A stretch of 56,047 nucleotides of DNA, taken from positions 1 to 56,047 of the forward strand of contig CAIVPR010000036.1 of assembly GCA_903907865.1 (NCBI GenBank), in the 5' to 3' direction. The notes under the pieces are model-generated. The model was given only the letters and a program-made list of their open reading frames with translations. It was not told the DNA's origin and made no database searches. The stretch is from an uncultured Acidobacteriia bacterium (GTDB lineage Bacteria; Acidobacteriota; Terriglobia; Bryobacterales; Bryobacteraceae). The first letter of the stretch is position 1; each line of letters starts with the position of its first letter. Of this stretch, positions 1,252 to 29,500 are shown piece after piece. The position numbers were made by a program, and so were the translations under genes.

Positions 1252-1347
1252 ATGCTCTCCAGCTTCACAGGCCGAATCATTACCGCCCAGGTAGTCCCTG
1301 TAGTGGTCGTAGGGATTATTGCGGTAGTAGTATCCGTCCCCGTCTGA
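1252..1347 (+). CDS. ilv operon leader peptide (Val/Ile-rich)
   Basis: A 31-residue peptide, MLSSF...VSVPV, whose last 23 residues hold 11 Val and 4 Ile, in runs VV, VVVV, II, VVV. The run begins with II directly after an Arg. Such runs are the sensor in ribosome-mediated attenuation of branched-chain amino acid operons: scarce Val- or Ile-tRNA stalls the ribosome here. The stop TGA falls just before a strong terminator and inside an alternative stem, which is the required geometry. A longer frame extends upstream to 1159, but the promoter at 1210-1238 argues for the ATG at 1252. The product itself probably has no function. Only one Leu codon is present, so the peptide appears tuned to Val and Ile. 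Confidence 0.85.
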   Translation: MLSSFTGRIITAQVVPVVVVGIIAVVVSVPV

Positions 1348-1390
1348 GGCCTCGGGCAGTACCAAGATTTTCCGAAGGCCACCGACGGGG
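1338..1390 (+). promoter_or_regulatory. Antiterminator stem of the ilv attenuator
   Basis: CCCCGTC (1338-1344, the last leader codons) is perfectly complementary to GACGGGG (1384-1390) inside the terminator. The pairing is extended by GGCC (1348-1351) with GGCC (1377-1380) and CGG (1353-1355) with CCG (1372-1374). Forming this stem would remove both arms needed by the terminator. A ribosome that reaches the leader stop covers 1338-1344 and blocks it; a ribosome stalled at the upstream Val/Ile codons leaves it free. Confidence 0.7.
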
Positions 1391-1416
1391 TTCCAACCCC
1401 GCAGGTGGCCTTTTTT
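1375..1416 (+). terminator. Intrinsic terminator (attenuator) before ilvB
   Basis: AAGGCCACC (1375-1383) pairs with GGTGGCCTT (1404-1412), and inside it CGGGGTT (1386-1392) pairs with AACCCCG (1395-1401). Six T follow (1411-1416). This is a textbook rho-independent terminator, placed between the leader peptide and ilvB. Confidence 0.9.
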
Positions 1417-1450: not shown

Positions 1451-3265
1451 ATGTCACACGACGCCCACACCGCCACCCCCACGCCCCACAAGCCTGTACA
1501 CAAGCCCGTCGTACACGGAGCCGCGGCAGGCGAAACCGGCAAGCTCATGAGCGGCTCTGAAATGCTGCTCGAATGCCTCGCCCGCGAGGGCGTCGACGTA
1601 TTCTTCGGCTATCCCGGCGGCGTCACCATCCCCTTCTATGACGCCTTGGTGGACCACCATATCCGCCACGTGCTCGTGCGCCACGAGGAGAATGCCTGCT
1701 TCGCCGCCGAGGGCTACTCCAAGGCGACCGGCAAAGTCGGCGTCTGCTGCGCCACCTCCGGCCCCGGTGCCACCAACTTGGTCACGGGCCTCGTGGACGC
1801 CATGATGGACTCCATCCCGATAGTTGCCATCACCGGCCAGGTGCACTCCAAGCTCATCGGTAGCGACGCCTTCCAGGAAGCCGACACCTTCGGCATCACG
1901 CGCCCCGCCACCAAGCACAACTTCATGGTGAAGACGGTAGCCGAACTCCCGCAGATCATCCATGAGGCGTTTTACATCGCCGCCTCCGGCCGTCCCGGTC
2001 CCGTGCTGGTCGACATCCCGAAGGACGTCTTCCAGGCCAAGGGCCACTACACGCCGGTCGACACGATCCACCTGCCTGGCTACAAGGTGTTCACGGAAGG
2101 CCACACCGGCCAGATCCGCCGCGCCGCGCAGTTGGTTCTCGAAGCCGAGCGGCCGCTGGTCTACGCCGGCGGCGGCATCGTGCTCGGCAACGCGTCCGCC
2201 GAACTGACCGAATTCGTGGAAGCCTCGGAAGCCCCCACTGTCTGCACCCTCATGGGCCTCGGCGGCCTGTCCTCCAAGCACCCCAACTTCATCAGCATGC
2301 CCGGCATGCACGGCAGCTACGCCGCCAACATGGCGATGACCGACTGCGACCTCCTCATCGCCCTCGGCACCCGCTTTGACGACCGCGTCACCGGCCAGCT
2401 CCAGACCTTCGCCCGCGGCGCCCGCGTCATCCACGTGGACATCGACCCGGCCGAGGTCGGCAAGAACCGCAACCCCGACATCCCCATCGTCGGCGACGTC
2501 AAGCGCGTCCTGCAGAAGCTCACCAAGGTTCTCCTGGAACTCAAGCCCGAGTTCGGCCCGGTCAAGGACGCAGCCCGCACCGCGTGGCGCAAGCAGGTCC
2601 GCGGCTGGATGGACGAGCATCCCTATGACCGTCTGCATGACGACCACGTGATCCGCCCCCAGCACTTGATGGACGAGATCGACCGCCTTTCGAACGGCCA
2701 AGCTATCGTCTGCTCCGACGTCGGCCAGCACCAGATGTGGGCCGCCCAGCTCATCGGCTTCAACGAGCCGCGTCTCTGGATCAACTCCGGCGGCCTCGGC
2801 TCGATGGGCTTCGGCGTTCCCTCTGCCATGGGCGCGCAAATGGCCCGTCCCGACAAGCTCGTCTTCGCCATCTGCGGCGATGGCGGCTTCCAGATGTCGA
2901 TCCCGGAACTCGCCACCATCGCCAGCCAAGGCCTTCCGGTCAAGATCATCTGCATGAACAACGGCTACCTCGGCATGGTACGCCAGTGGCAGACATTGTT
3001 CTACAACAACCGCCTGAGCGCGGTGACGCTGGACTCCTTCCCGGACGCCGAGAAGCTCGCCAACGCCTACGGCTTCAACGGTCGTACCATCGACAAGCCG
3101 TGGCAGCTGACCGACGCCCTCATGACGGCCATCAAGGACCCCGGCCCGTACCTCCTGAACGTGATGGTTTCGCCCATGGAGAACGTTTACCCGATGGTTC
3201 CGGCCGGCGCATCGATCTTCGAAATGGTGCTGGGCGAGAAGAAGCCGCAATTGGTGGGCGCGTAG
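1451..3265 (+). CDS. ilvB: Acetolactate synthase large (catalytic) subunit
   Basis: A 604-residue ThDP-dependent enzyme that condenses two pyruvates to 2-acetolactate (valine/leucine route) or pyruvate with 2-oxobutyrate to 2-aceto-2-hydroxybutyrate (isoleucine route). The order is N-terminal ThDP-binding domain (from about residue 33, with YPGG and catalytic Glu79 in RHEENACFAAEGYS), central FAD-type domain, and C-terminal ThDP domain with the GDGG motif near residue 475 and NNGYLGM near 502. About 30 extra His/Pro/Thr-rich residues precede the usual start. AGGAG lies 14 bases before the ATG, a rather long spacing. It is the first structural gene after the attenuator; ilvN follows 31 bases later. 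Catalytic versus biosynthetic type is settled by the adjoining regulatory subunit. Confidence 0.96.
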   Translation: MSHDAHTATPTPHKPVHKPVVHGAAAGETGKLMSGSEMLLECLAREGVDVFFGYPGGVTIPFYDALVDHHIRHVLVRHEENACFAAEGYSKATGKVGVCCATSGPGATNLVTGLVDAMMDSIPIVAITGQVHSKLIGSDAFQEADTFGITRPATKHNFMVKTVAELPQIIHEAFYIAASGRPGPVLVDIPKDVFQAKGHYTPVDTIHLPGYKVFTEGHTGQIRRAAQLVLEAERPLVYAGGGIVLGNASAELTEFVEASEAPTVCTLMGLGGLSSKHPNFISMPGMHGSYAANMAMTDCDLLIALGTRFDDRVTGQLQTFARGARVIHVDIDPAEVGKNRNPDIPIVGDVKRVLQKLTKVLLELKPEFGPVKDAARTAWRKQVRGWMDEHPYDRLHDDHVIRPQHLMDEIDRLSNGQAIVCSDVGQHQMWAAQLIGFNEPRLWINSGGLGSMGFGVPSAMGAQMARPDKLVFAICGDGGFQMSIPELATIASQGLPVKIICMNNGYLGMVRQWQTLFYNNRLSAVTLDSFPDAEKLANAYGFNGRTIDKPWQLTDALMTAIKDPGPYLLNVMVSPMENVYPMVPAGASIFEMVLGEKKPQLVGA

Positions 3266-3296: not shown

Positions 3297-3830
3297 ATGC
3301 TGCAAACGATATCCATCCTCCTCGAGAACAAGCCCGGCGCGATGATGCGCGTCACCGGCGTTCTCTCGGCCCGCGGCTACAACATCGAGACCCTGACGGT
3401 CGCCAAGACCATCGACCCCGAGCTTTCGCGCATGACCATCACGGTTGCCGTGGAAGACCGGCTGCGCGGCCAGGTGGTCAAGCAGATGAACAAGCTGATC
3501 AACGTCCTGCAGGCGACGGATCTGACCGACGCTCCCGGCGTGATCCGCGAAATGGTGCTGCTCCGCGTGCGCTGCGCGCAGGAAAGCCGTACCGCCGTCC
3601 TCAAGGAAGCGGAGATCTTCCACGCCCGCGTGGTGGATTCCTCCATTGAAGGCTTCGCGCTGGAGGCCACCGGCCTGCCCGAGAAGCTCGACGAATTCAT
3701 CGACGTGATGGGCAGCTACGGCGAGATCGAAATCTCGCGTTCGGGCTCGGTCGCCATGTCGCTCGAAACGAAGAAACTGCGCCTGCAGCCGCCGGTTCCC
3801 ATGGCAGTGCCCCAGGCGACAACGTACTAA
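3297..3830 (+). CDS. ilvN: Acetolactate synthase small (regulatory) subunit
   Basis: A 177-residue regulatory subunit of acetolactate synthase. Residues 1-75 form an ACT domain ([27 protein letters not shown]), the site where valine binds for feedback inhibition in known enzymes; residues about 85-165 form the C-terminal small-subunit domain. Size matches the IlvH/IlvN family. AAGGA lies nine bases before the ATG. It sits between ilvB and ilvC in one operon, so its synthesis is coupled to the catalytic subunit and shares the attenuator. Gene naming ilvN versus ilvH is a matter of convention. Confidence 0.95.
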
Positions 3831-3859: not shown

Positions 3860-4879
3860 ATGTCAAAACGCTACTACGAGAAGGACGGGAGCATCGCCCC
3901 CCTCCAGGGCAAGAAGATCGCCATTATCGGCTACGGCAGCCAGGGCCACGCGCACGCGCTCAACCTGCGCGATTCTGGGCTTGACGTGGTTGTGGGCCTC
4001 CCGGCCAACAGCAAGAGCCGCGCCAAGGTCCAGGCCGCCGGTCTGGCCGTCCTCGAGACCGCCGACGCCGTCAAGGCCGCCGACATCATGATGATCCTCG
4101 TGCCGGACCACATCCAGGGCCCGCTGTACGAGACCGACATTGCCCCGAACCTCTCGGCCGGCAAGACCCTCATGTTCGCCCACGGCTTCAGCATCCACTT
4201 CGGCGCGATCAAGCCCCCGGCCGACGTTGACGTCAGCATGGTTGCCCCCAAGGCTCCCGGCCACCGCGTCCGCGAAGTGTTCACCGAAGGTTCGGGCGTC
4301 CCCGGCCTCGTCGCCGTTGCCCAGGATGCCTCGGGCCACGCGCTCGAGACCGCCCTCGCCTACGCCACCGGCATCGGCTGCATGCGCGCCGGCGTCATCG
4401 AAACCACCTTCCGCGAAGAGACCGAAAGCGACCTCTTCGGCGAACAGGCCGTCCTTTGCGGCGGTGCCGCCGAACTGATCCGCGCGGGCTTCCAGACCCT
4501 CGTCGAAGCCGGTTACGCCCCCGAAATCGCCTACTTCGAGTGCCTGCACGAACTCAAGCTGATCGTCGACCTCATCTATGAGGGCGGCCTCAACTACATG
4601 CGCTTCTCCGTCTCGGACACCGCCGAATACGGCGATTACACCCGCGGCCCGCGCATCGTCAACGACCAGACCCGCGCCGAGATGAAGAAGATCCTCGCCG
4701 AAATCCAGCAGGGCGACTTCGCCCGCGCCTGGATCGAGGAGAACCGCTCCGGCCGCCACGGCTTCCTCGCCATGCGCGAATCGCAGCACGGCCAGCAGAT
4801 CGAAACGGTCGGTGCCGAGCTCCGCTCGATGATGACCTTCCTCAAGAAGAAGAAAGAACAGGGGATACCGGAGGCGTAA
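3860..4879 (+). CDS. ilvC: Ketol-acid reductoisomerase (class I)
   Basis: A 339-residue enzyme that isomerises and reduces acetohydroxy acids to 2,3-dihydroxy acids, the second common step of Val/Ile synthesis. The Rossmann motif GYGSQG is at residues 24-29; AHGFSIHFG near 107 and the metal-binding acidic clusters DLFGEQ (about 191-196) and FECLHELK (about 225-232) are intact. The length is that of class I enzymes with a single helical domain. The cofactor loop around GLPANSKSR contains Ser and Arg/Lys as in NADPH-using forms, though this cannot be settled by eye. AAGGA is 6-7 bases before the ATG. It follows ilvN by 29 bases. Confidence 0.97.
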
Positions 4880-4896: not shown

Positions 4897-6495
4897 ATGC
4901 GCATTCAAACGTTCGATACCACTCTCCGCGACGGCACGCAAGGCGAGGCCGTTTCCTTCTCGGTGGAGGAGAAAATCCTCATTTGCCAGAAGCTGGACGA
5001 GCTCGGTATTGACTACATTGAAGGCGGATGGCCCGGTTCCAACCCGAAGGACAGGGATTTCTTCGCCAAGGCGCGAGGCCTCAAGCTCAAGCACTCCAAG
5101 CTGACGGCTTTCGGCTCCACGCGCATGGCGAAGAACCCTGTCCATGAGGACCGCAATGTGCGGGAGCTGGTGGACGCGGGCACCCCCGTGGTCGCCATCT
5201 TCGGCAAGACTTGGGATTTGCACGTCCACCGCGCCCTCGGAATCACGCTGGAGGAAAATCTGGCGCTGATCTCCGAGACGGTGGCGTATCTGAAGGCGCA
5301 CGGCAAGGAAGTCGTTTACGACGCCGAGCACTTCTTCGACGGCTACATCCACAATTCCGACTACGCCATCCAGACCCTGGCCGCCGCCAAGGACGCCGGG
5401 GCCGACGTGCTCTGCCTCTGCGACACCAACGGCGGCACCATGACCGACCTGCTGACGGAGATCGTCGGCGTGGTCCGGGCCCGGTTCGAGGGCGAAATCG
5501 GCATCCATGTGCACAACGACGGCGACGTCGCGGTGGCCAATACGCTGGCTGCGGTGAAGTCCGGCGTGACGCACGTCCAAGGCTGCATCAACGGCTATGG
5601 TGAGCGTTGCGGCAACGCCAATCTTGCGAGCGTGATCGCGAATCTGGAGTTGAAATTCGGCTACCTGACCATCGGACCGGACAAGTTGCAGTTGCTCACC
5701 CCGACCGCGCGGTTTATCGCGGAACTTGCGAACCTGCAGATCCCGCACGGCCAAGCCTATGTCGGCTCTGCGGCGTTCGCGCACAAGGGCGGCATCCACG
5801 TCTCGGCCGTGCTGAAGGATTCGCGCACCTACGAGCACGTTTCGCCGCACCTGGTGGGGAACCGGCAGCGGGTGCTGGTGAGCGAGATGTCCGGGCGCAG
5901 CAACATCGATTATTTGCTGAAGGACTACCCGGAATTGGCGGGTCGTCTGGACCCCGACGCTCGCCGTCGACTGGTGGACCGCGTCAAGAACGCCGAGTTC
6001 GAGGGCTACGACCTCGAGGCGGCGGACGGCACCGTCGAGTTGTTCCTACGCCAGGAGTTGCACCCGAATGCGAAGTTTTTCGAATTGCACGGGTACGAGG
6101 TCATGGTGGTTGGCGGGCGTGCCAAGGCGACGAGGGCGACCGCGACTGTCAGCATCGGCACGAAGGCTGGCGATTTGGTGGAAACTGCCCACGGGCATGG
6201 ACCCGTCCACGCGCTGGACCAGTGCCTGCGGCGGTGTCTGGCGGATACGCCAGGAATTTCCGACGTGCACCTGATCGACTACAAGGTGCGGGTGCTGGAT
6301 TCCAAGATGGGGACGGCGGCCAAGGTGCGGGTGCTGGTCGAGTGGTCGCACGGGGATCATGCCTGGACCACCGTGGGCGTTTCCGAGGACGTGATCGAGG
6401 CCAGCTGGGAAGCGTTGGTTTCAGCGCTGAAGCTGGAATTGATGCGGTTGCTGGAGACTGGGACGAACGTGGCGGAGTATTGCTGGACGGCGTGA
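4897..6495 (+). CDS. cimA: Citramalate synthase
   Basis: A 532-residue member of the DRE-TIM metallolyase family that joins pyruvate and acetyl-CoA to (R)-citramalate, opening the threonine-independent route to isoleucine. Residues about 4-260 are the TIM barrel, with TTLRDGTQGEA at the start and the metal motif GIHVHND; residues about 385-525 form the LeuA-type allosteric/dimer domain. The long linker, AEHFFDGY and NGYGERCGNANL are typical of the TIGR00977 citramalate synthases rather than of 2-isopropylmalate synthase. It follows ilvC by 17 bases and is the last gene of the operon, which fits an operon serving Val and Ile. A nearby Shine-Dalgarno site is not evident. A leuA function is less likely but not excluded. 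Confidence 0.9.
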   Translation: MRIQTFDTTLRDGTQGEAVSFSVEEKILICQKLDELGIDYIEGGWPGSNPKDRDFFAKARGLKLKHSKLTAFGSTRMAKNPVHEDRNVRELVDAGTPVVAIFGKTWDLHVHRALGITLEENLALISETVAYLKAHGKEVVYDAEHFFDGYIHNSDYAIQTLAAAKDAGADVLCLCDTNGGTMTDLLTEIVGVVRARFEGEIGIHVHNDGDVAVANTLAAVKSGVTHVQGCINGYGERCGNANLASVIANLELKFGYLTIGPDKLQLLTPTARFIAELANLQIPHGQAYVGSAAFAHKGGIHVSAVLKDSRTYEHVSPHLVGNRQRVLVSEMSGRSNIDYLLKDYPELAGRLDPDARRRLVDRVKNAEFEGYDLEAADGTVELFLRQELHPNAKFFELHGYEVMVVGGRAKATRATATVSIGTKAGDLVETAHGHGPVHALDQCLRRCLADTPGISDVHLIDYKVRVLDSKMGTAAKVRVLVEWSHGDHAWTTVGVSEDVIEASWEALVSALKLELMRLLETGTNVAEYCWTA

Positions 6496-6900: not shown

Positions 6901-7815
6901 ATGGAAACAAACAACTCCAAGGTGCCCAGCGGCGCCGTAAAGCTTTACAACCTATTCATCCACGGTGAGATTGACAGGCGCTCGTTCTTTGACGGGCTGC
7001 AGAAGTTCGCCACGGGAGGCGTCGCAGTGGCGGCCCTGGCGGAGGCGCTGTTGCCGAACTATGCGGCCGGGCAGCAGGTTTCGAAGACCGACGAGCGGAT
7101 CAAGACCGGCTACGAAGTGGTCCAGTCGCCGCAGGGAAATGGCACGATCAAGGGTTATCTGGTGCGGCCGGTGAGTGCCGACACGCGCGACGCCAAGCCG
7201 GCGAAGCTGCCCGGAATCCTGGTGGTGCACGAGAACCGGGGCTTGAATCCGCATATCGAGGATGTGGCGCGGCGTTTCGCGCTGGCCGGTTTCATGGCGT
7301 TCGCGCCGGACGGGTTAACGTCGGCGGGCGGCTTTCCGGGCGACGATTACCGGGGCGGCCAAATGTTCAGCAAGATCGACGGCAAGAAGATGTTTGAGGA
7401 CATGGTGGCGGCGGCGCAGTGGCTGAAGGGTCGGGCCGATTGCACGGGCAAGATCGGGGTGACCGGGTTCTGCTACGGCGGGGGCGTGTCGAACAACTTG
7501 GCGGTCCGGCTGGGTGCGGATTTGTCGGCTGCGGCACCGTTCTACGGCGGAGCTCCGGCGGCCAAGGAGGATGTGGCCAAAATCAAGGCGGCGATCCTGG
7601 TGCACCACGGTGCGAACGACGCCCGCCTCGCGCAGGCATGGCCGACGTACGATGCCGCGCTCAAGGATGCCGGTGTCACCCACGAGGGCTATCTGTACGC
7701 CGGTGCCGGGCACGGGTTCCATTGCGATGCGACGCCGGAGCGGTATAACAAGGTTGCGGCGGAGTTGGCTTGGGGCCGGACAGTGGACTGGTTCAACAAG
7801 TACGTGCGGGGGTAG
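6901..7815 (+). CDS. Dienelactone hydrolase family protein, exported
   Basis: A 304-residue alpha/beta hydrolase. An N-terminal cytoplasmic-looking segment is followed by DRRSFFDGLQKFA and a hydrophobic Ala-rich stretch (about residues 25-50), a twin-arginine-type signal or anchor. The catalytic triad of the family is visible: Cys191 in GFCYGGG, Asp240 in GANDARL and His271 in GAGHGFHCD. Known members cleave dienelactone; many YghX-like proteins of this size have no defined substrate, so none is assigned. GAGGA is eight bases before the ATG, within a perfect hairpin. It is a single gene, convergent with the pst-phoU operon across a strong hairpin. Confidence 0.88.
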   Translation: METNNSKVPSGAVKLYNLFIHGEIDRRSFFDGLQKFATGGVAVAALAEALLPNYAAGQQVSKTDERIKTGYEVVQSPQGNGTIKGYLVRPVSADTRDAKPAKLPGILVVHENRGLNPHIEDVARRFALAGFMAFAPDGLTSAGGFPGDDYRGGQMFSKIDGKKMFEDMVAAAQWLKGRADCTGKIGVTGFCYGGGVSNNLAVRLGADLSAAAPFYGGAPAAKEDVAKIKAAILVHHGANDARLAQAWPTYDAALKDAGVTHEGYLYAGAGHGFHCDATPERYNKVAAELAWGRTVDWFNKYVRG

Positions 7816-27808: not shown

Positions 27809-29500
27809 TTATTGTCCTCGGAAATCCTTCCGCAGAAACCCAAAATCGCACCCCTCGTCCGCCTGGTTCACATGCTCCAGGAACAACCACCCGTACCCGC
27901 GTTCATAGTGCGGCTTGTGCGCCGGACATTCCGCCAACCGCCGGGCGATCTCCTCCTCCGGCACATGCAGAGTGATCTTCCGCCCCGCCGTGTCCAGTTC
28001 GATCTCGTCACCCGTCCGCACCGCCGCCAATGGTCCGCCCGCGGCCGACTCCGGTGCCGTATGCAGCACCACCGTTCCGAAACTGGTCCCGCTCATGCGC
28101 GCGTCGCTGATCCGCACCATGTCGTTGACGCCTTGGTCCAGCAGCACCCGCGGCATCGGGATCTGCCCCCATTCCGGGAACCCCGGCGCGCCCTTCGGAC
28201 CGCAGTTCTTCATCACCAGCACCGTGTCCTTGGTCACGGGCAAGTCCAGCGAATCGATCACCGCGTGCATTTCCTGGTAGGTTTCGAACACGAACGCCGG
28301 ACCCCGGTGCTGCAGCAGGTGCGGCGACGCCGCCGTATGCTTGATCACCGCGCCCCTCGGCGCGAGGTTCCCGCCCAGCACCACCGTGCCGCCTTCGGTC
28401 GAAATCGGATCCGCCGCCGTCCGGATCACATCCCGGTTCCAGCACTGCGCGCCTTCCACGTTCTGCCGCACGGTCTTGCCGTTCGCCGTCACCGCGTCGG
28501 CATGGAGCAGGGGCAGCACCTCGTTCATCACCACCTGGATGCCGCCCGCCGCGAACAAATCCTCCATCAGGTACTGCCCCGACGGCTTCACGTTCACGAT
28601 GCACGGCGTCCGGCGCGAAATCCGGTCGAACTCGTCCAGCTTGAGGTCGATGCCGAGCCGCCCCGCGATCGCCAGCAGGTGCACTACCGCGTTCGTGGAC
28701 CCGCCGATCGCCATGTTCACCGTGATCGCGTTCTCGATCGCCTCGCGCGTCATGATGTCGGATGGCTTCAGCCCTTCGCGCACCATCTCGACCATCCGCT
28801 TGCCGGACTCCTCGGCCAGCGTCAGCCGCCGCGAATCGGGAGCCGGAATCGCCGCGCAACCGGGCAGCGTCATGCCGAGCGCCTCGGCCACCGACGCCAT
28901 CGTGCTCGCCGTGCCCATCACCGTGCAATGGCCCGCCGACCGCGCCAGTCCGCCTTCAATCTCGCAAAGTTCGCCCTCGGTCAGCCGACCACCTCTATAG
29001 AGGTCGAATAGCTTGCGCCCGTCCGTGCCCGCGCCCAGCTTGCGGTCGCGCCATTGCCCGCTCAGCATCGGACCGCCTGTCACCACGATGGCGGGGATGT
29101 CGGCGCTCGCCGCGCCCATGATCTGCGCCGGGGTGGTCTTGTCGCAGCCGCACAGAAGGACCACTCCATCCACCGGGTTGGCCCGGATCGACTCCTCCAC
29201 GTCCATCGCCATCAGGTTGCGGAAGAGCATCGACGTGGGCTTCATGAACATCTCGCCCAAGGAAATCGTGGGGAATTCGAGCGGGAAACCGCCCGCCCGC
29301 CACACGCCGCGCTTCACCGCCTCCGCCACGCCCTTCAAATGCGCGTTGCAATTATTCAACTCGCTCCAGGAATTGCAGATCCCGATCACCGGCCTGTTGT
29401 CGAAAACATCCGCCGTGAACCCCTCGGAACGCAGCCATGCCCGCCGCGAAAAGTTGTAATATTCCTTGCCCGACCACCAGCTCTGACTACGTAGCGCCAT
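27809..29500 (-). CDS. IlvD/Edd family dehydratase, probably for sugar acids
   Basis: A 563-residue iron-sulfur dehydratase. Cluster cysteines are visible: Cys51 in SWSELNNCNAHL, Cys117/Cys119 in LLCGCDKTTPA and one in SAGHCTVMGTAST (about 191). The N-terminal pattern SWWSGKEYYNFSRRAWLRSEGF and GGFPLEFPTISLGE point to the aldonate branch (arabinonate/xylonate/fuconate-type dehydratases) rather than to true dihydroxy-acid dehydratase, so the substrate is left open and no symbol is given. The ATG at 29500 has GGAGGGG upstream; the longer frame to 29584 is rejected. It is divergent from the PHP gene. Confidence 0.85.
   Translation of the reverse strand: MALRSQSWWSGKEYYNFSRRAWLRSEGFTADVFDNRPVIGICNSWSELNNCNAHLKGVAEAVKRGVWRAGGFPLEFPTISLGEMFMKPTSMLFRNLMAMDVEESIRANPVDGVVLLCGCDKTTPAQIMGAASADIPAIVVTGGPMLSGQWRDRKLGAGTDGRKLFDLYRGGRLTEGELCEIEGGLARSAGHCTVMGTASTMASVAEALGMTLPGCAAIPAPDSRRLTLAEESGKRMVEMVREGLKPSDIMTREAIENAITVNMAIGGSTNAVVHLLAIAGRLGIDLKLDEFDRISRRTPCIVNVKPSGQYLMEDLFAAGGIQVVMNEVLPLLHADAVTANGKTVRQNVEGAQCWNRDVIRTAADPISTEGGTVVLGGNLAPRGAVIKHTAASPHLLQHRGPAFVFETYQEMHAVIDSLDLPVTKDTVLVMKNCGPKGAPGFPEWGQIPMPRVLLDQGVNDMVRISDARMSGTSFGTVVLHTAPESAAGGPLAAVRTGDEIELDTAGRKITLHVPEEEIARRLAECPAHKPHYERGYGWLFLEHVNQADEGCDFGFLRKDFRGQ

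Follow-up and report, generated by a model that had tools for sequence, protein, structure and literature searches.

Promoter, leader and terminator upstream of ilvBNC-cimA

The window, that is the whole 56,047-nt stretch of DNA analysed here, belongs to a 7.5-Mb genome whose IlvB is 69–74% identical to its nearest named relatives, which are acidobacterial bins, two of them titled Bryobacterales, and which suggest that the host is an acidobacterium of this sort. On its forward strand it carries ilvB (acetolactate synthase large subunit, 1451–3265, TIGR00118), ilvN (acetolactate synthase small subunit, 3297–3830, NF008864), ilvC (ketol-acid reductoisomerase, 3860–4879, NF004017) and cimA (citramalate synthase, 4897–6495, TIGR00977), all of which passed the NCBIfam cut-offs. 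The succession of ilvC and cimA recurs in three of four related named contigs (L031 in part, L032 and L034, not L033). The Bryobacterales-titled L033 has neither a leader before ilvB nor cimA within the ~800 nt read past ilvC. Two further genes of the window scored below their model cut-offs: a YghX-like hydrolase directly after cimA (6901–7815, 350.7 bits vs. 460) and a second IlvD-type dehydratase on the reverse strand (27848–29446, 464.7 bits vs. 618.15 for ilvD).

Four parts precede these genes on the same strand, namely a promoter, a leader of 31 codons, an antiterminator and an intrinsic terminator. The promoter (1210–1238) comprises a −35 box TTGCAT (1210–1215), a 17-nt spacer and a −10 box TACACT (1233–1238). 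As simple scans reported neither the promoter, whose hexamers by eye share only 7 of 12 bases with the consensus, nor the terminator, whose stem is broken by an interior loop, both calls rest on conservation: 16 of the 17 genus members (all but L014) have TTGCA 41–43 nt upstream of the leader ATG, and all 17 have a TANANT hexamer starting 18–19 nt upstream of it. An A/T-rich stretch (CATAA...TCTAATC-like, at about 1180–1200), some 10–30 nt upstream of the −35 box and alike by eye in genus members, is a possible UP element or regulator site. Transcription is expected to start about 7 nt past a −10 box, which predicts a start near 1245. The leader ATG lies 13 nt downstream of the −10 box, the mRNA is therefore nearly leaderless, and its predicted 5′ UTR of some 7 nt is too short for a Shine-Dalgarno site.

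The leader open-reading frame (1252–1347, 31 codons and a TGA stop) encodes MLSSFTGRIITAQVVPVVVVGIIAVVVSVPV, with 11 Val, 4 Ile and 1 Leu. Its promoter and its 31 residues rich in Val and Ile had been described in an earlier note on this DNA, and both can be read directly. Val and Ile make up 15 of 31 residues, compared with 14.0% in the operon proteins (binomial P 4.9e-6), thus the leader is rich in the amino acids of its own operon. The frame is kept in 17 genus members between a start fixed to the −10 box and a stop fixed to the antiterminator, across seven different leader lengths of 26–37 codons, and we infer that the leader is translated.

Mutually exclusive hairpins

The region 1245–1420, which the note had proposed for folding, reached −73.3 kcal/mol (z −4.47), a value equalled by none of 200 shuffles. 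The terminator hairpin (1375–1412) has a 9-pair outer stem (1375–1383 with 1404–1412) and a T6 tract at 1411–1416, as previously read, whilst the inner stem (1386–1391 with 1396–1401) has six pairs around a 4-nt loop rather than the seven first given, since a seventh would leave a 2-nt loop. Similarly, the exact complementarity of CCCCGTC (1338–1344) to GACGGGG (1384–1390) stands, yet the antiterminator extends well beyond these seven pairs. Nascent RNA ending at the terminator 5′ arm folds into one 20-pair hairpin (−29.3 kcal/mol, z −3.8, 0 of 200 shuffles), in which segment 2 (1338–1360, including the last leader codons and the stop) pairs with segment 3 (1367–1390, overlapping the terminator 5′ arm). 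It consists of the seven pairs CCCCGTC/GACGGGG, then GGCCT/AGGCC, then an apical stem from the spacer, and most of the leader stop codon falls in an internal loop. This hairpin uses the 5′ arms of both terminator stems and overlaps the end of the leader, the two structures are thus mutually exclusive. A further hairpin within the leader coding region (1276–1331), present in the minimum-energy fold, is a possible pause hairpin and leaves segment 2 uncovered.

Conservation of the element within the order

Within the order we compared 55 loci (L001–L030, L032, L033 (placed by title and identity), L111–L127, L129–L132, L135 and L136), having dropped L031, L034 and genomes G005, G017, G021, G034, G037 and G055, where the gene 5′ end or upstream DNA was missing. 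Leaders and terminators were picked by eye, and nine terminator arms and the L112 leader stop were set by hand in the duplex test. The earlier note had staked its reading on homologous operons keeping the peptide or the two stems, and they largely do: an open-reading frame containing BCAA codons, whose last codons can pair with the 5′ arm of a hairpin further on, precedes ilvB in 53 of 55 loci, a leader being found in neither L033 nor L123. BCAA residues among the last 18 of the leader range from 13 to 5. Counting its seeds, a covariance model built from 36 sequences had matches in 180 of 200 order genomes, which represent 71 of 74 genera.

Covariation was sought in an alignment of these 36 family sequences from the leader end to the T tract, as the note had suggested. 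In the terminator, 8 of 13 pairs were changed on both sides, and no shuffle of 500 was as high. In the antiterminator, 7 of 11 pairs were changed on both sides (a count that none of 500 shuffles reached), whilst the count of both-sided cells was reached by 3 of 500 shuffles, the only observed value to be reached; slid antiterminator controls paired less (at most 56.6% vs. 76.0%), but one had more both-sided pairs (8 vs. 7) and three more both-sided cells, and the RNAalifold consensus had only 6 pairs for the family and 11 for the sister set. The co-change of the two arms is visible directly, as CCCCGTC/GACGGGG here, CCCCGCC/GGCGGGG in other genera, GCCCCGG/CCGGGGC in a sister family, TTCGCC/GGCGAA in L023 and CCTCGCC/GGCGAGG in L136.

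Statistics were drawn from 61 loci (52 inside and nine outside the order, with L119, whose leader was recognised later, left out of them), in which related loci are not independent. The nascent antiterminator had z below −2 in 54 of these 61 (the exceptions being L019, L021, L022, L026, L030, L143 and L146), and in 2164 of 2734 swaps between clades a leader end paired better with its own arm than with the foreign one. Of the 61 loci, only 31 have a duplex between segment 2 and the arm that is better than 95% of those formed by base-shuffled leader ends; against synonymously recoded ends, only seven of 61 exceed 95% and 49 of 61 exceed the mean. By these modest scores, Pro-Val/Ala codons in a GC-rich genome account for much of the complementarity. 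By a crude rule, T4 or longer follows the terminator in 33 of the 36 loci of the family and in 9 of the 16 of the sister clade. Seven loci of sister family f3, genus g21 (L118, L120, L121, L124, L126, L127 and L129) keep leader and antiterminator and have no T4 run past the terminator arm; transcripts there may acquire their 3′ end in another way, or the element may be degenerating. Overall, sequence and comparison show which parts the element has, how they are arranged, that they can pair in two alternative ways and that they are conserved.

In the host genome the covariance model gave a single full-length strong match (97.5 bits), the next being the opposite strand of the same hairpin, and no second copy was found among the matches inspected. 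Weaker matches include C85 (E 0.009), and another on C155 (E 6e-4) was rejected as a second copy, being by eye an ordinary terminator. No leader was found in the about 600 nt read before ilvD of this genome. The about 600 nt read before leuA contain one open-reading frame whose final 18 residues include 8 BCAA; a longer frame lies opposite it on the other strand.

Modelled switching by a leader ribosome

To relate ribosome position to folding, we barred bases covered by a ribosome of assumed footprint from pairing and folded the nascent RNA at equilibrium. The probability of the antiterminator was 0.93–0.94 while any of codons 9 to 25 occupied the A site, then fell to 0.84 at codon 26, 0.55 at 27, 0.28 at 29 and 0.03 at 30, and was 0.00 with the ribosome at the stop. 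In all 17 genus members the drop began at codons −6 to −4 (counted back from the stop), with ≤0.29 remaining at the stop. As the antiterminator falls only over the last codons in this model, the Val/Ile run lies mostly just upstream of the occlusion boundary. The arrangement claimed in the note, in which stalling at Val/Ile codons frees the antiterminator, is thus reproduced: a stall at the control codons frees it and the stop position blocks it, in folding with an assumed footprint only. On the complete RNA the terminator dominates (0.83–0.99), therefore the switch must be kinetic.

Taken with the sequence evidence, the modelling makes it very probable that the element is a ribosome-mediated transcription attenuator sensing charged tRNA-Val and tRNA-Ile. 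A ribosome would load at once on the nearly leaderless transcript and trail RNA polymerase. When Val and Ile are ample it would reach the last codons and the stop, covering about 1328–1357 and blocking the antiterminator, so that the terminator would form and transcription would stop near 1416. When Val or Ile is short, the ribosome would stall no later than codon 27, in most cases on a GTA or ATT codon, leaving segment 2 free to take 1367–1390, and the polymerase would continue into ilvBNC-cimA. We infer both the stalling and the response to amino acids.

The trp attenuator is known to possess an anti-antiterminator, in which segment 2 is sequestered by an upstream segment as long as no ribosome is present, and loss of leader translation then raises termination. 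Such a three-hairpin arrangement has been proposed for Corynebacterium glutamicum ilvBNC, whose expression dropped by 80% when the leader start codon was lost (PMC11857589), and in our full-length fold GCUUCA (1262–1267) is paired with UGAGGC (1345–1350). Against this, in ribosome-free nascent RNA extending to the terminator 5′ arm the antiterminator forms at a probability of 0.93 here and 0.83–0.99 in 17 of 17 genus members, albeit in an equilibrium model only, and no anti-antiterminator hairpin hiding segment 2 without a ribosome was predicted by this thermodynamic model in any of the 17. Since nascent RNA is predicted to adopt the antiterminator even when free of ribosomes, termination should depend on a ribosome having reached the leader end, unlike in trp. 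We therefore consider a trp-like attenuator rather unlikely, and on the modelling somewhat favour a logic carried by the ribosome alone, in which the terminator would win only with a ribosome at the leader end and no separate hairpin would hide segment 2.

Proposed sensor codons of the leader

Codon choice in the leaders is far from that of the genes which they precede. Within the last 18 codons of 36 family leaders, GTA makes up 120 of 208 Val codons, compared with 76 of 1450 in 30 ilvB genes, and ATT 59 of 95 Ile codons, compared with 209 of 996. Third bases are A/T in 130 of 187 leader Val codons (316 of 1450 in ilvB), but also in 43 of 144 four-fold degenerate non-BCAA leader codons (1007 of 6044 in ilvB), thus a general bias exists and explains only part of the GTA excess. 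Past the occlusion boundary, at −1 to −4, GTA is rare, being used for 1 of 21 Val, compared with 119 of 187 at −5 to −18 (P 1e-7), which is no independent proof, as the last codons are also fixed by pairing.

By codon counts and the occlusion model, three GTA codons of our leader (V25–V27, 1324–1332) would be the final sensor codons before the occlusion boundary. Codon −5, counted from the stop, is GTA in 46 of the 52 order loci, which makes it the most constant GTA site; codon −5 is not an ideal stall site in the model, since it sits on the boundary (0.55). The best 30 of 46 tRNA matches include three tRNA-Val genes, whose anticodons are UAC, CAC and GAC. In the theory of selective charging, codon bias follows the sensitivity of isoacceptors and not their rarity (PMC1183508).

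The proposal that the leader answers to Val and Ile and hardly to Leu carries over to the family in codon content, with 187 Val, 91 Ile and 34 Leu in codons −5 to −18 of the 36 leaders, and the low Leu content would fit an operon ending in cimA. Tentatively, these data can be combined into a reduced attenuator run by the ribosome alone, with no anti-antiterminator, termination that needs translation, and rare GTA codons at a fixed distance from the stop as the sensor order-wide; we regard this as plausible but less likely than not. If it were true, the GTA-rich and differently built leaders of other Acidobacteriota would represent a sensor that has arisen or been kept repeatedly.

The same data bear on two further explanations. 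A plain conserved terminator next to a translated small protein that acts on its own, with no switching, would account for the conservation of the open-reading frame in the genus, including its N-terminal SF(T/S)GR-like stretch, but the central part of the peptide differs among leaders in length and order whilst the BCAA codons and the RNA complement persist, and codon choice in the leaders is extreme; we consider this highly improbable. Still less credible is a riboswitch containing an open-reading frame by chance, for example for ppGpp, of which a riboswitch controls ilvB in some bacteria (PMC10272879), since no Rfam 15 family reached its gathering cut-off within the window, the better of two matches at E up to 10 in 1150–1500 (isrD, 18.8 bits vs. 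a cut-off of 37) lies on the terminator, and the 36-sequence alignment shows no further domain between leader end and T tract.

Comparison with known attenuators

The E. coli ilvBN and ilvGMEDA attenuators have a leader and hairpins that differ from those of the element described here. They share its targets and logic (both are named in PMC1183508). The closest known system is the C. glutamicum ilvBNC attenuator (ilvL; the ilvB-II RNA motif), which likewise has a Val-run leader before ilvBNC and an overlapping antiterminator and terminator (PMC11857589, PMC10272879), a transcript starting one nucleotide from the leader ATG (PMC11857589), and GUA as a conserved control codon named in Corynebacterium, as with the GTA sensor codons here (PMC11857589, PMC10272879). 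It differs in its 15-residue leader MTIIRLVVVTARRLP with Leu codons and in the proposed anti-antiterminator, and its operon is described in these sources without cimA. We saw no sequence relation to ilvB-II, for which there was no Rfam match here. The ilvB-OMG motif similarly comprises BCAA-codon-rich uORFs before ilvB in various phyla, for which attenuation was suggested, but these are also rich in Thr (PMC10272879); no match to our element was found among the Rfam 15 families, which may not include ilvB-OMG. The Sinorhizobium meliloti trpL mRNA also encodes a leader peptide without a 5′ UTR, but senses Trp and has the ATG itself as its 5′ end (PMC7298713). In Streptomyces coelicolor, mutated leader codons before ilvB were without effect (PMC1262725), which counts against the attenuator reading proposed here.

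Among the open-licence papers listed for this subject we found no description of an attenuator of this kind in Acidobacteriota, although one could be mentioned in the comparative study that Lopatovskaya and others published in 2010 (cited in PMC4833913), and in a broad survey almost no predicted Acidobacteria attenuator had an assigned function (PMC2965389). Here an acidobacterial case of a known kind of attenuator is given its parts, a proposed sensor and a target operon, and it recurs through an order. A little-studied soil bacterium and its relatives seem to keep a long-known RNA switch for Val/Ile genes. The fixed GTA codon raises the general question of what sets codon choice in attenuator leaders, and the missing anti-antiterminator that of whether a hairpin hiding segment 2 is needed.

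Loci outside the order

Outside the order we read 57 loci (L128, L133, L134 and L137–L190, the last 54 chosen by hand). Nine of these (L137, L143–L146, L153, L158, L169 and L190) possess their own BCAA-rich leader and terminator, with the leader end complementary to the arm (12 pairs in L153) and with GTA as 22 of 29 Val codons. In many others a longer open-reading frame, often presumably an IlvD-like end, runs close to ilvB, hence these loci say little on attenuation further upstream. Genome G069 has two ilvB genes (L144 and L145), each with a strongly BCAA-rich leader and a terminator.
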